A stretch of 64,000 bases of DNA from Tubiluchus corallicola (taxonomy: Eukaryota > Priapulida > Priapulimorpha > Priapulimorphida > Tubiluchidae): assembly GCA_030141605.1 (NCBI GenBank), contig JAQGDQ010000219.1:1-64000 (forward strand). The letters run 5' to 3'. The position numbers and the translations under genes were made by a program. The notes below the pieces were generated by a model. The model saw only the letters and a list, made by a program, of their open reading frames with translations, ran no database searches and had not been told where the DNA came from. Below, in pieces: positions 4,801 through 34,322 of this stretch. Position 1 is the stretch's first letter; each line of letters begins with the position of its first letter.

Positions 4801-7800
4801 AAATATAACTATATCTGTCTCATTACTTATAGAAGATAGAAAGTTTTGATGTTCGAATCTGTTTAAACTATGGTTAAATACACGCATTGGTTATTATAAC
4901 TGCCACAAATTACTGGAAATAGCAATAAAAAAGTTTTATTGATTGGTAATACCGTTTTGCAAATAATTACCTTTTAACACTTTATCTATAGACTTATAGA
5001 GCTAGTGAATAATTTGCATTATAATTATTATCAATTTTTGTCATGATGCTGGAAGTATGGATGACGATTTGGAGCAATAAACATTATTTAATTATAACAG
5101 CGATAACTATAACTATAACTATAACTATAACTATAACTATAACTATAACTATAACTATAACTATAACTATAACTATAACTATAACTATAACTATAACTAT
5201 AACTATAACTATAACTATAACTATAACTATAACTATAACTATAACTATAACTATAACTATAACTATAACTATAACTATAACTATAACTATAACTATAACT
5301 ATAACTATAACTATAACTATAACTATAACTATAACTATAACTATAACTATAACTATAACTATAACTATAACTATAACTATAACTATAACTATAACTATAA
5401 CTAAGCACTTCTCTTAGAAGTTTATACCAGAACATGCTGCCCAAAACAATGGTTGTCGGTTATCCCTGTCAACGCTGTTCACGGGAGCATCCCGGTAGAG
5501 CAGTGTGCGCAATGTAGTTAATCCCAGCTCTGGATCGTTCCCCATATCATTGAAACCACACATTTGTGCTGCGTAATGCAATGGGTAAGCACCGTGGACA
5601 TCAGTCGTAGCACAGTCAGCACCACAGTCAATCAGAAGATCGATAAAATCCATTTGACCGCAAACTACAAGTTTATAAAATATATTTATACACAAGGATA
5701 TATAGAGGGTGTGTAACTTCAATAATAAAAATAATTCAAGCTATGGCGCTAACCCTGACTCTTCTGTGACATTTTTTTATGTTTTATATATATAGTAATA
5801 TCTCGAAACATACTGAAATAGTTTAATGAGTACAAAAGATGATTTATTAAAACATAAACTCAATATTTCAACTGCCTAACGGCAGTCATTCTCAGACGAT
5901 TACTTATGTTTTATGTTTTCATTTGTGCATTTTTTCCTGTGCGACTTTCCTTGTATACAATGTTTAAGCCTAATATGCACTGCACATCTGTCTACTGGAA
6001 GCTCAACAGATCAAAGCAGTACAGAAAACAAACATACTGACAGCCCAGTGGATAACTGAATGGCTTTCATCGTCGACTAGGCTTACATCAGCGCCATTCT
6101 CCAGTAAGCACCGAAGCACCTATAGAAAATACAGTTCTGAAATCAGTAGAATTCTAAATCACAGATAATATTAGAAGATTAAATAACATTGGAAGAAAAA
6201 AGATACAGAAGATAGTCATAATAGTTCAAATTATTTAAATTTTGATAGCCAATTAGAAAGTCAGGAAATGGGAAAAAGTTAGAACACAGTTTGAATTTGA
6301 ACCAGGGACATCTGGCTTACAATGGCGACGCCATAACCACTAAACCATCGTCGTTCACAGTGATTATGGCAGTCCAAAGTTTATCTCTTACAGCTGGTCA
6401 GCCATTTCAGCATTTCTAAATCTGACTAGTGATTTAATAAGATTAATTAAGATCACTCTAGTGTGAGCGGTCTAACATTGGAAATGCTGAAATAGCTGGC
6501 CAGTTATAAATTATGAACTTTGGACAGCTATAATCAACAGGAAACACGGTGGCCTAGTGGTCATGACATCGGCTTTGTAAGCCGAATGTCCCTAGTTCAA
6601 ATCCAGGCTATCTTCCAGCTTTTCACATTTCTTGTCTTTCTAATTTGCTATCAAAATTTAATTAATTGTAAACAGTTGTTGGTTTATTGACCAGTAGCTC
6701 AGTAACAGATTGTAAGTCCCAAAAAGGAATAAACAAAACAATACGTTAAATAATAGAATAGCCCAACAGTGTATTTATCTAAGAATAGGTGGGTTTAAAA
6801 ATGTAAACCAAATCTAGATTGTAACTCATGCCGCATGACATGAGCCGCTCCTCCTTCGCCAGCTAGAGGGCAAAGTTCGATTCTTTCGTCCTTAAAGTTC
6901 GCAAACAGCCAAACCGACTGAATCCCGTCCTGGCTTCTGCAGACTGAATGGCACTAGCTGGTTAATTATGTTAATTAAAATAGTTGGTTAACAGTAATAA
7001 ACAATTAGTTAAATGGCTGCGAATGCGTCAGTTGAAATCGTCTACATTGACTTACTACATCCTGTAAGGTAACTAGAAATGTGCGTGCGAAGTTTATTTT
7101 ATGAAACAACAGTTTTTTAATGTGTAATAGCTAATATTTTTAAACTCCTAAAGCTGAGCGTTACCTAAAACGCCAAATATTGTACTTACAATATCACTGT
7201 TTTTTAATCAGTCATTCTGTAAAACCTAATAAGACGTACGTTTTGCTTTTTAATCACATTCAATACTCTGGCAATATTTGTAAGCATCAAATAGCTTGTC
7301 AGACCTTAATAACGGTGTAGTCTAATTACGAAACTTTCATGTTTCCAACATGAATATAATAGCTAAAAGGGCAAGACTAGCTAGTGGTTTCAAGAGAAAG
7401 GGAATGAAAATTTGGAATAGCCTGAGGCCTAGAAGACATAAGTACTTTGCATACGCTATTAGCCAATGAAAGTTGTAAAGAAATGTTTAAAATGTACGGA
7501 CGTAAAAAGCCGATATAAAAAGACAATGGTGCAGCCACTATGTGGGAAAAACAGCTGATGCAGCTGATGCAGCTACTATGTGGGAAAAATGAGGAGATTA
7601 ATGTGCCGCAAAAACTCTTGAATCCGCCAGAAATGATATTAGGATTCTGCACGTTTTCCATATCAATTGCAGCAGCGCTAATCATCCAGCAACGAGAAAA
7701 GATTTCTAAAGAAGCTTTCTCGTGTCGAATTTCCAGCCAGAAGCAGAATGATAAGCTGATTTTCGCAAGATTATCATTTGCTGCACAGTGCTTAAAGTAA

Positions 7801-23560: not shown

Positions 23561-23630
23561 ATGAATTTTTCTAAGATTTCTCCAGCATTGTTTTTGCTTC
23601 TTAGTTTACTAGCGGTATTGTATGGAGAAG
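23561..23630 (+). CDS. CD164: CD164 exon 1: signal peptide
   Basis: Encodes a hydrophobic signal peptide ending near VLYGE and splits the next codon at the donor G|GTACTG. Confidence 0.82.
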
Positions 23631-26600
23631 GTACTGTGGTTATTTACTTAATCATGTTAATGTTGTATCGTAGTCGGTTAAATTTTTCATTTTTATTCTA
23701 CTTTTTTAGTAAGTGAGGTGAGTCAAAGTAAGCCTAGTATTAGTATTAACTAGTTTTACTTGCATGATACGAAGAGGGAATAATTAATTTGTAAGGAGCA
23801 ATGATTTACTATTGTGTTAGGCAGTAACTTATTAACTAGTTAGCAATCACATAAAAACTGATGTAGTGATAGCAATCAATGAGTGTCTCGAATTATGCAT
23901 GCTTATCTAGCATTTAATGATTCAACCTAAGACTGTAAACAATGATGCTTGTTAATTGATGTGTGTTTTTAAACGGGTTAGTGGAGGTTGCCAGCACAGT
24001 CAAATCTCATTAATATGATTTTCAAAGGACCCAAAAATTTTGTCTTATCAAACGTGCTTGGTACTAAGGGATGTTCATGACGGGATCGTTATTTGGGTTG
24101 GGATCAAGGTTTGGGACATAATTGAACTTGAGGTTCGATTTTTCGGTATTCAGGATTAAGTGATCGGAATCAGTCAAGTGTGGTCAATTGTGATCTACTG
24201 AGCCGATCATAAAAATTGAGCATAAATATTGCTGAATTAATAAGAAAATGTAAAAATAAAACATACAAAACTTACAGTAAAAGCTTTGAAATGTTTAATG
24301 CATTGTTGCGGCAAAATTGTTGACATGCAGCATCCACATTTCAGTCACTTGCCTTCCTGATGAGATACCACACTCAAAGGGTACCATCTAAACATATGCA
24401 GCAGATTAAGCATTTCAGTTCTGCTGTTGCGTTTTGATCATTCAAGCTGTTTTGTTGTACTGTTTATTTCATACCATAATGAGCAATCTTGCTAAATTTT
24501 CGATGTGTTCGGGCAACGTGTTGGTTTGCAGTGAAGACTGTGAATCTGGTTGAATATTTGTTCTTTTCTTTATGAATCAGGTAACTGTATGGGTTCGAGC
24601 TGCATTTTCTTTAATCAATTCTTTCACATTATTTTGTTGTTCCCATATAGTTGTATTGGTGTACGCTCACTAGGCAGTAGTTGTCTATCTAGAGCAGCAC
24701 CTGTTGTCAAACAGTGATCAGTCAGTATCAGTGAACAGTCAAATTGATTGCTCATCACTAGATCACGGTATGGATGAGGACTAAAAGTTCGGGATTAGCC
24801 TGACCCATGCATATAATTGTCACTAAATGGAGATAAAAAAATTATAGCAAGCGTCCAGATTAGTCTACCTACATATGCTGCCTGGTGATATGTCAGCTGT
24901 AAACACATTAATTATTATGTGATTCTGTGAATATTAAAACAGTATTTGTTTGCTGTTGTTATATAGTTATGATATAATGTGTAGTTATTGTTATTTGGTA
25001 TAATTTATGAATCAGAAGCCAGAAGTTAGAATTTCCATAATGTTACAGTGTGGAATGTAACAATTTAATAGTGCCAGGAAAGAAGTGTTTTTACTACAGC
25101 TAATTTGTTGAAGTACCACTTATTCCTGCAAATTGCTTGGAAATAAAATCTTCCTCAAGACACACAATATGTTAGTATACTGACATAACAAAGTATAACA
25201 ATAAATTTTGCAAGCTATTTGTAAGAAGTTCATAATGTAGTAAAGGGGAAAGACGTTATACTGGGTGATCACGATGTGTGGTTAGTCCATGAAGTTAGGG
25301 AGCCCTACCTTAAAAGAAAATCCCATATGGAGTGAAAAAGGAAAGTTCAGTAGAAAAAGCTTACACTAAATACTTATCATTTACTTATCATGCATTTTGT
25401 TGAAACATTTTTTTCTTTTTGGAAAGTCTAATTGAAGATTTTAAACTGATAAATTGCTCAACTTATTAAGAATTATACATAAAAACTGGCAAGCTGACGC
25501 ACATCTCAATATAAAAAAACAATTAATTTTTGATGAAACCTGTGTTCTAGATTCACCTCCTGATCCATGTGGAAAGTTTAATTCCAACTGTGGTGAATGT
25601 GTACAGTATAAACCAATAATTGATGGAAGTGTCTGTTATTACTGTACTGTTGCTGTACAAAGTGCTGGTAGGATTTGTTCATAATCTATTCGTTTTTGTA
25701 AGGTAATGATTGTATATTAAATGTGAATTATGAAGAAAAGTGGGAGTTGTATTAATATAACACAATTAAATGAATTCATCTTTCGGGGATTAATATATTC
25801 TTCGACATTTACGTTTGTGCTGAAATTCCTTTCCTCGTTCGTTAACAATATTTTTGGTTTATGTAAATTTGCTGTAAATGTGATTTTCATTGCGAGAAAA
25901 AGAAGACACTTTTAGCCGTAACTTAGATGCTGGTGTTCCTGCATTTACGATTTCTGTGACATCATGTTGTTGACTATGCCTGTAGGTTTTACTTTCATTA
26001 ACCTATCCTATAATGTTACTGGAGTAATTATAATGGTGTTTCAGGACCAGCATGTTCACTAGACTCTGCTAAATGCAATGTTACAGCAGGACGCATAGCC
26101 AACAATACGGACCAATGTAAGTTCCTGTGACTGAAAAATCCTTGTTCAACAAAAATCAGCATATAGTGGCGAGTTTTGCACAATAATGCTTTTAACGCTA
26201 TGTGTGGCGAACCGTGACCTAAAAAGCAAACGGCATGTTTTACATAAATAAGATACATATACTTGGTACATTGCCACATTATTAGTCACATTATTATGTC
26301 TACCAGTCACATTATTAAATTGCGTGTTTGCATAGCAAAATCGTCCATAAGTCGGCAACTAAGCTTTTCTAGTTGTTCACGTATCCTGAATCTTCATTTC
26401 ATGAAGATCATTTTGATACCAAGTTTATTGCTCTATGTTTTTTCTAAGCTGATATAATCCACATTGAAGTTGAGGTGCACACTACGCACTGAAAAACATA
26501 ACTTTGAGAAAATGCCTGTTAAAATTAGCCGTTGTTTTTTGTCGCCATTCTGCAAAACAGTTAGCACTGCACAAATGTTGGTTGCTATGGACTTTGCAAG

Positions 26601-29600
26601 AACATTTTGATGTTATGTTTAAATCCATTAGATGACTCTTCCTAACAAAAATCTGGGCTTGTCAACAGAAAAAAACCCAAAACAAAATGACTGCTTCCAC
26701 AAGCTATCATCGGAGTTTGAACATGCAAGTTTTTTACAATTGCAGTACTAGTTTCTAACCAGAAAAGTGGGCACGGGGTTATAAAATCAGATTTTTTGGG
26801 ACATTTTCTTGATAATTTGATGCTAGAATATAAAAGTCTAATATATTTAGCATTGGTTTTTACAAAATACGAAAAATTGACGTTTGACCAAATTTTTGGG
26901 TCATTCTACTTTGACGCATCATAACGTAGTTTTAGTTATGCCAACTTATGGATGAGTTTGGTATGCAAGTACACAATTATTTTACAATCTAGTTATTTTC
27001 ACATATTTGTAATATAAAAATACGTAATTGCTAATTTAAACACTATAATAAATTATGCAGACAAATGTGCATGTTAATTTGAATGAGTTACTAATTTGTC
27101 TTGTAATGGAATTAATAATTTTACAAAAGTTACATATCCAAAAATATATGATATATAATGTGTCCCCTTGAACAGTGAAGCTATAGTAGCCTCTACTTTT
27201 TCATTATTGCCTTCTGCTCTTTTTATCTTACGATGTAATTAATAATTTTACAAAAGCTACATATCCAAAAGTATCCGAAATATAGTGTTTCCCAGTGAAC
27301 GGTGAAGCTATATTTAGCCTCCACTTTTTCGTTATTGATCTTTGCTTCTTTATTCTGTGAGCATGTGTCAATATAAAATAAAATAAAATTTTGTCTTATA
27401 TTTGCTTCTGTACTTTGTGTGATAAGTAAAAAGCTAAAAGAAAAAGGTGGGTGCATATTAGTGCATGAAACTGTTTCTTTTTAGGTTCTGGAATAAGCGT
27501 ATCAGACACTGGTGGGACACCTCAACCAAATGGTAAGTAAAAATCTGTTGCAGTTGTTTTATTTTCTGACTTGTTAAAAAGCGTTGGCTTTCTTGTTTAA
27601 GCTTATTAATTCATACTATACTGTTGTTGAACACGTTGGGGCAATTTATGTAGTTTCACAATAGAAACTCTGAATTTAGAACAATTTTCACCATGTTTAA
27701 ATGCATAATCACATTATTTAAAATTATGTTGTTAATTATGGTCAACCAGAATTTTAATCCTCCCCCCTCCCGATTGCCCTATTGCCCAGGTTTCAGCCTC
27801 ATTCCTGACTCAAAGTTATCATGCTTGCATGTCACGCATCCCCGATAGTGTCATATGTCTAAACTAATAGGTTTTCCCAGTTTAATTATCGGTAAATTAA
27901 CTATTCACACAAGTAGTGTATATTACTTGCTCATTTTAAGGCATAGTCCTGTGGGTTAAAGCTATCTAACTACTTTAAACTTGGTCATAATTGATCCAAT
28001 CACTAATTTTTACATAAACACAGTTAAATACAATGCTAGAATTACGGAACTTCTGAGTGAACTGTAGAAATTTCCTAATACATACAGTCACACAGCTGGC
28101 CTTCGCAGCTTTCACGCTGCCTAGCAGGTGTCAGTTTAACGTCTTTTTCTCAAATATACCAACAACGTTGTTCATTTGGCAGGAGATAAAAAATATTTCA
28201 ATTTCTTTTGCATTTTTAAACAAGGCATTTTATACGCGTATATTGTGTGGTGATTTTAATATTGTAATTGTATATTAAAATGCAATAAATGTTGTTCGAA
28301 GGTTGGTTTTTCCTTTAATTATTTACTTGTGTTTGGCTTTGGTTCATGGGTATCTTTATCCAAGCACTTGTGTTTGTTCCTGACCAAAAATGCCTGGTTT
28401 TTGCAAGAAGTGAAAAAGGATGGCTTAGAGCTTTACCAATGATTGAAGTTTGAACATGGTCAGACTTAACTGGTAACTCTTGTAAGCATTTTCAGCCAGT
28501 GGAAAAGATATTTAATTTTGCAGGCATGGTCTTTCTGCTAATCAGGTTCACTGCAGGATGTACAACAGTAATTTGGAACATTGATTTTTAATAACTGCAA
28601 TAAACTAAAAAAACATAAAAACAGAATTTAATAGATCTAAATTATTATCAATTTATACTTATTATTACATTTTTCACAATGACCATATCTGTATAGTAAT
28701 GATGTAAATTTTTGTTTCATTAGGAAAAATGCTACAGTAGTTGCATATGCAACTGGGTGCAATAGGCACTTATATTTGTACTTGGTAGAATGTACTTGAA
28801 TTCAAGCCTTGTCCAGCTACGAATGATAGTTTTGTCATGTTACGAAACCTAGCTACATGAGCTTGACCTAGGAGGGAAACCACAGGGCCCTGTCGAGCGA
28901 ATCTCGGATCAAAAAATGCCAATATAAATATAATTCAAACCTAAACCCCTTGAATTGGAGAGTGCCTTGACTACTTTGTCACTGTTCCTTTCATGCCACA
29001 CCACCATCATAAAAAAGGCAAGCAGCTATTGAAACCAGAACATCAGCCACCTGTAGAGGGCAGACTGAAGTAGGTTAACAAGTTGACTAGAAAGGACCAT
29101 TTAAAATTGAGCAATTATGAATGGAAACCTTTGCGATAAGTTCTTGCTACTTACAATATAGCTTGACTTTTTTCTGTTAACTGGTTTTGCTGGCTAGTTT
29201 GTACTATCTCAGTTTACTTACACACTTTTCTTTTCTCTTGCCTTCTTCTGCAGCTCCATTGTACCGTAAAGCCTCACTTGAAACAAATAGAACACTGCTT
29301 TTTTGGGATGATGTTTTCAACTTCACATTGTATGCTTAAAATGAAGTTTTGTTGTTTGTAAAATTCTAATTAAATACTTGTTTTTTTCTTCAGGTGGTAA
29401 TAACACTCAGCCTATGAATCGTGAAGAAAGCTCCACCACCTCACCTCCTAATCCTACTACTTCAAATGTTTCAAGTCCCATGCCAACATCAACTACTACA
29501 GTTAATACTACTACCACCACTGCTAGTACTGTTCCTACCACTACAGCTAGTAATGCTACACTTCCCACCTCCACCACGCCAGTTACAAACACAAGTTCAA

Positions 29601-29935
29601 GCACAACACCTAGTTCTAACAGTAGCACGCTGACTACATTGCCTAGTGGGAATTCCACTTCGACTCTACCATCCACCACATTACCATCCAATGTGACAGC
29701 AGTTACACCAAATGCCACAACTTCCATAACTAACGTAACTAGTTCCACATCTGCTCAGTCATCCGAATCACCTTCGGAGAAACCGGAAACAGCACTGCCA
29801 GCGCCACACCGTCAGCATTTTGATGTTGCCAGCTTTGTTGGAGGCATAGTGCTTGCACTGGGGATCATTGCCATTTCTTTCTTTGGATTCAAGTTTTATA
29901 AGTCGAGAACCGAACGAAACTACCAGAACTTGTAA
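23561..29935 (+). CDS. CD164: CD164 / endolyn-like sialomucin, five-exon main form
   Basis: Exons 23561-23630, 25551-25667, 26045-26116, 27485-27532 and 29394-29935 all join in phase 1 to give about 282 residues. Order: a signal peptide (MNFSKISPALFLLLSLLAVL), a Cys-rich segment (NSNCGECVQ, GSVCYYC, ACSLDSAKC), and a long Ser/Thr/Pro mucin exon with many N-glycosylation sequons. One TM helix (FVGGIVLALGIIAISFFGF) and a short basic tail KSRTERNYQNL follow. The block FDVASFVGGIVLALG and the tail match the conserved end of vertebrate CD164 (FDAASFIGGIVL..., ...ERNYHTL). The YQNL is a Yxx-phi sorting signal, which in endolyn directs lysosomal and endosomal trafficking. An alternative 3' end is described separately. 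Confidence 0.9.
23631..25550. other. CD164 intron 1
   Basis: AT-rich. A CAGTCAAATCTCATTAATATGA sequence near 23998 resembles the terminal repeat of pogo/Tigger-type elements, and the following ATCGGAATC/GATCGG-rich stretch to about 24210 may be the rest of a remnant. No exon was recognised. Confidence 0.5.
25551..25667 (+). CDS. CD164: CD164 exon 2: Cys-rich segment
   Basis: Acceptor TGTGTTCTAG, donor GTAGGA, 117 nt. It encodes SPPDPCGKFNSNCGECV through VCYYCTVAVQSAG, with five cysteines. The open frame continues upstream of the acceptor, but that part is intron. Confidence 0.85.
26045..26116 (+). CDS. CD164: CD164 exon 3
   Basis: Acceptor GTGTTTCAG, donor GTAAGT, 72 nt. It encodes PACSLDSAKCNVTAGRIAN with two sequons and two cysteines, in phase 1 on both sides. 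Confidence 0.83.
27102..27350. repeat. Tandem duplication, about 130-bp unit, in a CD164 intron
   Basis: Two diverged adjacent copies share AATTAATAATTTTACAAAAG, ACATATCCAAAA, GTGAAGCTATA and CTTTTTC.TTATTG. The first starts near 27102 and the second near 27232. Non-coding. Confidence 0.85.
27485..27532 (+). CDS. CD164: CD164 exon 4
   Basis: A 48-nt exon (acceptor TCTTTTTAG, donor GTAAGT) encodes SGISVSDTGGTPQPN after a Cys formed across the junction. Its length is a multiple of three and it is phase 1 on both sides, so it could be skipped without breaking the frame. Confidence 0.8.
27533..29393. other. CD164 intron 4, no further gene found
   Basis: A low-quality ORF at 28057-28278 has no recognised domain. 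A GC-richer patch near 28860-28990 (GGGAAACCACAGGGCCCTGTC...) may be an old repeat. Nothing else is supported. Confidence 0.5.
29394..29935 (+). CDS. CD164: CD164 exon 5: mucin domain, TM helix and tail
   Basis: Opens after TTTTTTTCTTCAG and carries the Ser/Thr-rich mucin region, the TM helix and the tail. It stops at TAA 29933-29935 after YQNL. A donor CTT|GTAAGA begins at 29932, inside the last codon. Confidence 0.92.
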
Positions 29936-30352
29936 GAACTAGTTTTACTCATTCTTGCCCATGACTGCTATTAGTCGGTTTCAGAACTTAATATTTTGTC
30001 AAACATACAGAATGTTTAACCTGTTGTGAATGCCATCACGAGTCTAGTCCAATTCAAACCATTCTAGTACATTTGTAATGCATATCATTAATTACCTGTA
30101 ATATTCTTTGACAATAATGCAGTATTGCTTTCCATATATAGAAGCACACAGAATCCCCATAGAACAGACATACACATACTTGCCATGCTCAATGCAATAG
30201 CTACACATTATAGTATGTTATAAAATTATATATTTTACTTCATTGAAATCCAAACTTATTAGAGCTTATTAACAAACTTACAGTAACAATAATTGCCATT
30301 ATTTCGTAATTGTGATGCCACAATAGAGTAACTTTGTATTCTAAATTTTTAC

Positions 30353-30358
30353 AATAAA
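30353..30358 (+). terminator. CD164: Poly(A) signal for the unspliced CD164 3' end
   Basis: AATAAA about 420 nt after the TAA stop and before the acceptor at 30533. It would end the form that keeps the YQNL tail. Confidence 0.55.
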
Positions 30359-30533
30359 ACATATTCTGTGGCAATACGAAATGGCATTCTGAATAATGTT
30401 TTCACAAAATGGGTTCTATGGTAATGCTAAAACAGTGTCACAGTAGTTGGGCAGAAAAAAAATCACTTGTAGTGCAGCCAGTGCTTTGCATTTCAAACTA
30501 GTTTTTTGATAATATTTTGTTTTTGTGTTTCAG

Positions 30534-30571
30534 TGATAACTACATTTGAGCCTTCACACCTTTTCAGAAAG
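30534..30571 (+). CDS. CD164: CD164 alternative exon 6 (short alternate tail)
   Basis: Follows a good acceptor TTTTTGTGTTTCAG. When 29931 is spliced to 30534 the codon across the junction becomes TTT and the frame reads FDNYI then TGA at 30547-30549. The tail therefore changes from NYQNL to NYQNFDNYI. A donor AAAG|GTATGG ends the exon at 30571. Its likely partner is the acceptor TTTATTGCAG at 33248, giving a 3' UTR exon. Confidence 0.55.
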
Positions 30572-31103
30572 GTATGGTTTAATATAAATTTTATTTAAAA
30601 CTCCTTCCATTGTTTTATGTTTGCCAGTTATTGGTAGGGTGCTGTGTAGGGTTTTGCTATTGCATTCTTAGCCTTTAGTCATTTACTAACTATCATGTAG
30701 TGGCAAGTTTTTGATTGTGTTTCTCTGTGGAACACCATGTAACTTGTATACTTTTGATCAAAAACATGGGTTAGTGATGCATATTTTTCTAAACTAATGT
30801 GAAAACTTCATTAATGTAAATTGTCCTCATCTTGTAACCATTTTAATTGTTATCGAGTAAATGATGAAGTTGACGGAGTCAGATGACCTGACCTAAGGTA
30901 GATGCTCTTTTTTGACAACTTGAACTTCTGCGTGTGAATAATGCAGTTAGAAAAGTGTGATGAAATTTACTTGATATACATAAATACACATAACTCGCAC
31001 TGATAAAATCGGTCATACATATACAGTGAAAAAGTTGCCTGTAGGCACAAAGATCAGTGTTTCCCATCCAAGAAACATGATCAATAGTTTTTATAATTGT
31101 ACT

Positions 31104-31260
31104 ACAGTCGAACCTCGTTATACCTCCTCCCTCCGTTATAATGCCAGCCTCGCCATAACGCCAACTTTTGCCTTGTCCCGATTTCCATAATATATTAAGT
31201 ATAGAGAATACCGCCAACCTCGCCTAACGCTTTCCACCAACGTATCTGCTATGCCAAAAG
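31104..31260. mobile_element. TIR-like end of a pogo/Tigger-type element
   Basis: Begins CAGTCGAACCTCGTTATA and continues with internally repeated CTCGNNATAANGCCAAC words. A related, more decayed block in the same orientation lies at 31845-31905, and another at 52190-52360. Inverted partners were not found, so these are remnants. Confidence 0.5.
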
Positions 31261-32276
31261 TCTGTTGTACATAATAAATTTAAGCTGTTGTAACGTCAGG
31301 CTAGGTAGAGTACAATGAATTGTTATTAAAAAACAGTCACTTGTAAAAACAATGACTTCAAAAAAGTAATTATGGTGTTTAATTTAAGGCTTAGGTCTTA
31401 TTGCAGATGACTGTTAGAAAATGAATGCTGAGATTTTGAGCAAGGAACATTCATTTTCAGAGTACAATAGTTGCATAGCTAAGCTTCAGTATTGAACTGA
31501 TGTGAATTTAATGGCTGTAAAAGCTCAAGGTCAAGTAATATGCAGCGGCTATTCATAATCTTGATTGTCCAGTAATGTTACGTTGGGAGCGTGGTTGCAT
31601 ATTTCTGTTATCAGCAATAGGCTAATTAACCATATTTCACAAGATTGCTTCTCCAGGGTGTTACATAAAAGTTTTACAATGTACCACCTTAGAACTACAC
31701 CTGCATTGTTAATGCAGCAAAAATATACAGTATATAACACATGTATTCTTAAGGGCATAATAACATTATACTATTTCTCACGTATTAAAATTAGCTAGGA
31801 AACAAAACAGAGGCTACACAGCAGAATGGCTTTGATATTTAATGAACCTCATCTTACCGCCAACCCCACTATAGCACCATATTTAGTCGTGTCCCAGACC
31901 TGCTGCAAAAATTAAAAAAGTTTTTTAATCGATTTTGGACAGTAACATTCATGTTGCTAGATTACTAAGAGACCGCCATTTTAAGAGGACAAGTACATTT
32001 GTGTGCGGGCATTTGGACACTGGCTCACTTAGGTGCGAGAGGTTTGGTGCCATCGTCGATGCACAAGTTAGTCCAGGTCCAGCATGACTCGATCACACAA
32101 GAATACATTATTTTTGTTTTATTATTGCTCTGTAAATCACAATATTTAATAGGCTAAAATCATCGTAGGAATTGTCGTCTCCTCTCTGATTATCATACAA
32201 CTTTTAAATCATCTAAAGTTTTTATAAGAAAACTAATAATTATTGCCATGAGTACTATCGTGTAAAACTTGAAATA

Positions 32277-33020: not shown

Positions 33021-33959
33021 GTTATGTACCCCATGATACATGCTTCAGTAGGCCTAAGGTATGTGTTCCGCAGTATGCACAGCTGTTTGCATTATGCTGA
33101 AAAAGCTTGTTTGCTGTGGTATTACTAATGAAATTGCAGTAGATCAGCCCACACTATAATGTAATTTCATTCTGCACGTTAAACTGCACGTAATAAAAAT
33201 TTGTTACTACTAACTGAATTATACTACATGTCTTACTCTTTATTGCAGGAATGTGCCAATAGCAGGTCTTTTTTACTGCAGAGAACAAACAATGGTTTAT
33301 ACTACCTGGTGTGCTGATCGCTTAACTAATATTGTTTCTATTTGAGTAATCTCGTGGTATAATCTCAAATATTTTCTTACGTCCTTCCTTTTTGGGGTGT
33401 CTCACAAAGTAAATATTTGTTAGTGTATAATAATAGTTTTATCAGGGAGCCTCATTCTAAATGGCAGCTGGCTGCTATTCTACTGTGATAGGATTTTTAT
33501 AAACTTGAACATTCTCAATGTAGAATTTAATTGTAAGCTATATGTTATAAAACTATTTTTACAATATTATATTCTGCACAGTGTGTATATTCAAATAATG
33601 TTTTCAGTTTATTTAATTAAAATGTGGCACATGTGACTAACCACACTCTTACTAAGATTTGACGACTTTATAAGGCTTTATGAATTCAGTTGAGTTGGTT
33701 AAAAGCTAAGTATTTAGTGAATTTGTGTGACATGACTGTGGACAGCATCAGCTTTTAATGCTACATTAAACATTAATTATTATTATAATTAATAGTGAAT
33801 AACATGAATTTTGTCAAATGAAAGCACTATGGCTTTATAGGCGGTATCAGGTGTAATTCTGTGTCAGGACGGACTCTCTTGAAAGGACTTATTTGTTCGT
33901 AATTTATTTTGTTTTACTTGATTGAATTAAATAATTTAGGGCTGTTAAAGTATTTCTAA

Positions 33960-34322
33960 AGTGATTGTTGGTTGCTTTACCGCTGGATTAACTGTATAAA
34001 AGACTCTGCACGTAATCATATACAGTTTTAGAATATTGCTGCTAGTAAGATTTTTGTTTATGATTCAATAAATTCCCATTATAGTTAATTATGCCAACCT
34101 TTCATATTGAAAACAATGAAATTATTTATGAAAAGCCTATAGCGTCACTATTAGTTGCTTTAATGCTGGCCTCTTTGCATAACAGGCTTTCAATAAAGCA
34201 ATCATATTTTATAGAATTTCATTATTACTGGTATTATTTTTGTATATGATGCAGTAAGTTCTCATTATAGCTAGTTATGAGAGCCTTTGTTATTAAAAAC
34301 AACAGAGTTATTTGTGAAAAAT
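33960..34322. repeat. Tandem duplication, about 183-bp unit
   Basis: TTGGTTGCTTTACCGCTGG at about 33968 recurs as TTAGTTGCTTTAATGCTGG about 183 bp later. The following TTTTTGT.TATGAT.CA.TAA.TTC.CATTATAG block is likewise repeated. The copies are diverged. Confidence 0.75.

Follow-up and report, generated by a model that had tools for sequence, protein, structure and literature searches.

The CD164 gene of Tubiluchus corallicola probably makes two cytoplasmic tails from a single dual-use TTGTAAG, in which the last leucine codon and the stop codon also contain a 5′ splice site. When this site goes unrecognised and polyadenylation takes place within the intron, the protein would end Leu-stop with a C-terminal YQNL, the normal Yxx-phi ending of the family. 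Recognition of the donor by U1 would instead have the phi codon completed from a short downstream exon, giving YQNF plus DNYI. Comparison with a diverged paralogue points to an old, protein-constrained alternative tail in both CD164-family genes. The analysis covered a window of 64,000 nucleotides (34% G+C) from a genome of 343.5 Mb in 2344 contigs, and the coordinates of the features are collected in the table.

Table. Features of the CD164 gene, its putative alternative 3′ processing and its paralogue. Positions are those of the window unless a contig is named.
Feature	Position	Strand	Basis or remark
CD164 coding exon 1, ATG and signal peptide MNFSKISPALFLLLSLLAVLYGE	23561..23630	+	gene model
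CD164 coding exon 2, cysteine-rich part	25551..25667	+	gene model
CD164 coding exon 3	26045..26116	+	gene model; splice-site scores
CD164 coding exon 4	27485..27532	+	gene model; splice-site scores
CD164 coding exon 5 with mucin stretch, transmembrane segment and the tail SRTERNYQNL; its stop TAA at 29933-29935	29394..29935	+	PF05283
5′ splice site GTAAGA inside the last Leu codon and stop (TT/G TAA GA)	29932..29937	+	7.5 bits, 45th percentile; same position in the C2038 paralogue
Dispersed repeat in intron or retained 3′ UTR, 5′-truncated, complete 3′ end	30303..30503	+	at least 40 genome copies; profile E 1.2e-41
AATAAA of the repeat, a candidate signal for intronic polyadenylation	30353..30358	+	CG-to-CA transition from consensus ACGATAAAAC
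Alternative short exon, TT/T GAT AAC TAC ATT TGA (FDNYI-stop), stop at 30549-30551	30534..30571	+	acceptor 10.6 bits, 81st percentile; tail repeated in paralogue
AATATA/TATAAA variant poly(A) hexamers, GU-rich stretch downstream	30581..30588	+	candidate local end of the alternative exon
Possible distal untranslated exon, not essential to the model, with AATAAA at 34067 and 34192	33249..34210	+	acceptor 85th percentile; single-copy region
Second CD164-family gene, tail KKNGSYRTL, stop-embedded donor	contig C2038, about 145690-146150	-	PF05283

The gene was modelled as five coding exons on the + strand (23561-29935), and in the translation read off this model a signal peptide is followed by cysteine-rich and mucin parts, a single transmembrane segment and a short tail. 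Scored with a matrix from the same genome, the exon 1 donor (AAG/GTACTG) is weak (8th percentile of true donors), as is the exon 2 acceptor (6th percentile); because of this weak acceptor, the exon 2 boundary is the least certain of the model. The sequence-only reading had named the gene CD164, and a Pfam profile match confirmed the assignment: the gene matches MGC-24 (PF05283) with an E value of 6.7e-16 and 59.3 bits, against a curated cut-off of 28.5. The alignment spans the transmembrane segment and tail and covers profile positions 55-140 of 140, that is, to the final position. Judged by this match, the gene is a CD164/MGC-24 homologue. The C-terminal RNYHTL of CD164 is reported to be invariant from human to roundworm (PMC4510537). 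The C terminus encoded in the window is RNYQNL, which retains both the Yxx-phi motif and the terminal leucine, with QN in place of HT. Further PF05283 matches on contigs C162 and C716 were rejected as homologues, being other Thr-rich membrane proteins without the tail. A search for the arthropod cuticle family PF00379 gave no match, which speaks weakly against an arthropod source, as no control responded. Elsewhere in the window, positions 5084-5413 hold a long simple hexamer-like repeat that is open in several frames (ITITIT, YNYN or SYSY).

The final codons of the fifth exon, AAC TTG TAA, occupy positions 29927-29935. If the donor is used, the exon ends at 29931 and GTAAGA begins at 29932; with 30533 as the last base of the acceptor AG, the next exon starts at 30534. 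The earlier reading had described a donor CTT/GTAAGA within these codons, an unspliced tail ending in YQNL and a spliced tail ending in YQNFDNYI, and all of this was reproduced by the positions and the translations. The retained reading encodes 282 amino acids with the C terminus NYQNL, and splicing to 30534 encodes 286 with the C terminus NYQNFDNYI. Between the two tails, phi changes from L to F, the motif is moved off the C terminus and four residues are added. A Yxx-phi motif, YQNF, is still present in the spliced tail, and the sorting signal would therefore be modified rather than removed.

The quality of these splice sites was evaluated with weight matrices from 53 high-confidence introns at twelve myosin loci of the same genome, placed by spliced protein alignment with GT-AG as the sole requirement. 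The donor at 29932 is average among true donors, and the acceptor at 30534 falls in the top fifth of true acceptors; sites as good as this acceptor occur at 0.25 per kb on the + strand and 0.12 per kb on the - strand. Many true donors among the 53 introns lack G at -1, with GTAAGT or GTGAGT following, and CTT/GTAAGA is therefore not unusual here. Both sites are good by the genome's own standard. As a separate observation, several of the genome's myosin II heavy-chain genes are arranged in tandem, three of them on contig C1359, and contig C917 carries two copies with identical match scores in opposite orientation, which may reflect an inverted duplication or the assembly.

A stop-embedded donor is by itself not rare, a rough estimate giving ~5% for a gene ending Leu-stop. 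What raises the arrangement above chance is that donor and encoded tail both recur in a diverged paralogue. This second gene, on contig C2038, also matches PF05283 through the final profile position; an attempt to reconstruct its upstream exons gave weak alignments only. Its last codons read ACA TTG TAA GGG, with a donor (ACATT/GTAAGG) in the same place as in the window gene, although this donor is weak (4.4 bits, 17th percentile). At an acceptor 1315 nt downstream, the frame continues YRTF-YEANAYI-stop, and this acceptor is the first above the 40th percentile of true acceptors and the first of the ten listed; the predicted junction on the minus strand of C2038 runs from about 145694 to 144378. 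Both spliced tails thus place F at phi and follow it with a short extension ending N(A)YI (YQNF-DNYI and YRTF-YEANAYI); counted from phi, the extensions are short and unequal, 5 residues in the window gene and 8 in the paralogue. The codons of the shared F, Y, I and stop (TTT/TTC, TAC/TAT, ATT/ATC and TGA/TAA) differ synonymously in every case, indicating that the similarity of the tails is not leftover DNA identity. Across the transmembrane segment and tail, 18 of 39 residues are identical between the two genes, and 12 of these 18 shared residues have different codons, which argues for an old duplication. Since both genes carry the stop-embedded donor, the arrangement would predate the duplication that gave rise to them.

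The chance of meeting such a tail was estimated from every acceptor scoring 6.8 bits or more in 341 kb of this genome, counting both strands (n = 574), the tail after TT being read for each. An F...YI-stop within 12 residues followed only 2 of the 574, namely the acceptors of the window gene and the C2038 gene; among all AG dinucleotides the count was 15 of 18258. These figures concern a feature that was picked post hoc, after being seen. A looser anchored-similarity score was reached by 45 of the 18258 AGs, or ~0.25% per acceptor tried. The results bear on the explanation that donor and acceptor are chance sites, every message ends in YQNL and the likeness of the paralogue is coincidental. 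Donors as good as that at 29932 occur ~0.9 times per kb, a few percent of Leu-stop genes would be expected to have a stop-embedded GTAAG, and the shared peptide feature was chosen with the answer in view, all of which would fit such an explanation. Nevertheless, both genes have the same stop-embedded donor, and the rare anchored similarity is found at the very first good acceptor of the paralogue, so that we regard coincidence as improbable. The evidence for a genuine and old alternative exon, maintained at the protein level, is good but not conclusive, and on the same comparison the longer CD164 tail is likely to be real.

We then consider how the retained form could end. A scan of 29936-31272 for AATAAA and ATTAAA returned a single occurrence, the AATAAA at 30353, which in the sequence lies between the donor at 29932 and the acceptor at 30534. 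The genome contains at least 40 further matches to the surrounding repeat (30303-30503), with identities of 69-87%; the profile of this repeat family aligns to the window with an E value of 1.2e-41, the first 121 model positions being absent, and the copy ends exactly at the 3′ end of the family, 30 bases before the acceptor. An origin from an element with terminal inverted repeats was rejected, the 5′ side scoring no better than shuffles. At the hexamer site the repeat consensus reads ACGATAAAAC and the window ACAATAAAAC, and the CG-to-CA change is found in only a few other copies. The AATAAA seems to have arisen by CG-to-CA decay within an old repeat and, on this evidence, is not an old feature of the CD164 gene; as a candidate signal it may still work. 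The earlier claim that this hexamer ends the retained form is accordingly borne out for its presence and position and qualified by its origin in a repeat through CpG decay. A precedent for a repeat-derived intronic poly(A) signal is TAF8s, where the signal comes from an Alu (PMC12871804); the AATAAA here is a candidate for such a signal.

The origin of this hexamer also lends weight to the explanation that the last intron is constitutively spliced, with YQNFDNYI as the sole tail and the retained form not a real product. In its favour, the splice sites are good, TT followed by GTAAG at a phase-2 donor necessarily reads Leu-stop, and the only AATAAA in the intron is a decay product of an old repeat. 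Against this, leucine before the stop is the ending of the family, reportedly unchanged from human to roundworm (PMC4510537), both genes reach the last position of the PF05283 profile, and the intron of the paralogue contains AATAAA at +685 and +831. We therefore consider constitutive splicing unlikely and retain two tails as the favoured reading.

Downstream of the short exon, the AATATA/TATAAA hexamers at 30581/30583 could end the alternative exon locally, at ~30605. The sequence-only reading had the spliced message run on to a distant UTR exon. For this, a donor is present at 30572 (GTATGG, 25th percentile), and the acceptor at 33249 is strong (85th percentile) and lies in a region, 33200-34260, that is single copy in the genome. 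The distal exon is nonetheless not required, because the local hexamers and the GU-rich stretch could end the short exon, and the alternative exon of the C2038 gene has its own AATAAA 168 nt in. Between these positions, at about 31096-31905, the window also holds a repeat of ~800 bp that starts near CAGTCGAACCTCGTTATA, is present in at least 40 further copies (73-81% identity) and carries an AATAAA at 31273.

The strength of the acceptor at 33249 and its single-copy surroundings would suit yet another explanation, in which the donor serves mainly a choice of 3′ UTR, through the 30571/33249 junction or directly to 33249, and the tail change is a minor side effect. The stop at 30551 lies only 20 nt before the 30571 junction, and by the 55-nt rule (PMC4510537) decay of such a message is not expected, which is compatible with a UTR exon beyond it. 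However, skipping directly to 33249 would append 31 unrelated residues (NVPIAGLFYC...), the short tail appears to be under constraint, and the paralogue needs no third exon. A third tail through skipping to 33249 was set aside as without support. We hold a primary role in UTR choice to be the least probable of the explanations considered; it overlaps with the two-tail reading.

On the two-tail reading, both messages would be made, polyadenylation and splicing would compete, and the tails would route the protein differently. The earlier claim that the Yxx-phi tail of endolyn governs its routing agrees with human data: CD164 without its C-terminal YHTL remains at the plasma membrane, YHTL being needed for endo-lysosomal targeting, and the R192* truncation, which removes RNYHTL, leaves the protein stranded at the surface (PMC4510537). 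YQNF should still be recognised in the AP-2 manner, but it would no longer have the C-terminal position that is typical of lysosomal Yxx-phi signals. The most likely effect is therefore a change in how much of the protein is delivered to lysosomes relative to endocytic recycling or residence at the surface, rather than an on/off switch. Endocytosis through YQNF should thus continue. That YQNF still fits Yxx-phi was counted against our best explanation, as routing may stay unchanged. The wider proposal, that in the CD164 genes of this lineage an ancient dual-coded Leu-stop/donor, retained since before the gene duplication, acts as an intrinsic sorting switch between a terminal YxxL lysosomal signal and an internal YxxF signal whose ...YI end is conserved, is put forward tentatively, as a possibility short of an even chance.

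The arrangement resembles several known systems. In LAMP2A, 2B and 2C, alternative last exons give one lysosomal membrane glycoprotein gene several Yxx-phi ends. The window gene (YQNL vs. YQNFDNYI) and its paralogue (SYRTL vs. SYRTFYEANAYI) have the same feature at the sequence level, one lysosomal glycoprotein gene with tails that carry different Yxx-phi motifs. In contrast, LAMP2 swaps the whole last exon including the transmembrane segment and its motif stays C-terminal, whereas here one splice recompletes the phi codon and adds four residues after the motif. Human CD164 itself is alternatively processed at its 3′ end, around the terminal coding exon, and the products differ at the C terminus: isoforms 4 and 5, which arise from an exon 6/exon 7 choice, are soluble and have lost the membrane part (PMC4510537). 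Unlike these isoforms, both products here keep the membrane segment and differ only in their last residues, and the donor lies inside Leu-stop. In CstF-77 intron 3, intronic polyadenylation competes with the 5′ splice site (PMC3708835). In both cases the outcome would depend on which acts first on the same stretch, the spliceosome or the machinery of cleavage; as a difference, the donor here overlaps the stop codon, so that the protein change amounts to ~five residues. A literature search mostly excluding subscription papers found neither tail isoforms of an invertebrate CD164 nor a CD164 tail switch that keeps the membrane segment and has its donor within Leu-stop. Lysosomal glycoproteins with alternative tails are known, as is alternative 3′ processing of human CD164; the membrane-retaining Leu-stop-donor switch would be new with respect to the papers searched.

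The shared ...YI end poses a binding question, and we know of no binding partner for it. The possibility that -NYI/-AYI acts as a PDZ ligand was set aside, position -2 being N or A, neither hydrophobic enough nor acidic.

If the two-tail reading is true, it predicts a second CD164 tail that would be missed by annotation relying on the conserved YxxL-stop, and it would offer a compact, easily tested case of RNA processing controlling membrane traffic. Moreover, a splice decision over a few bases would set whether a widely conserved sialomucin carries the lysosomal signal or a modified tail, and this choice would have been in force since before an old gene duplication.
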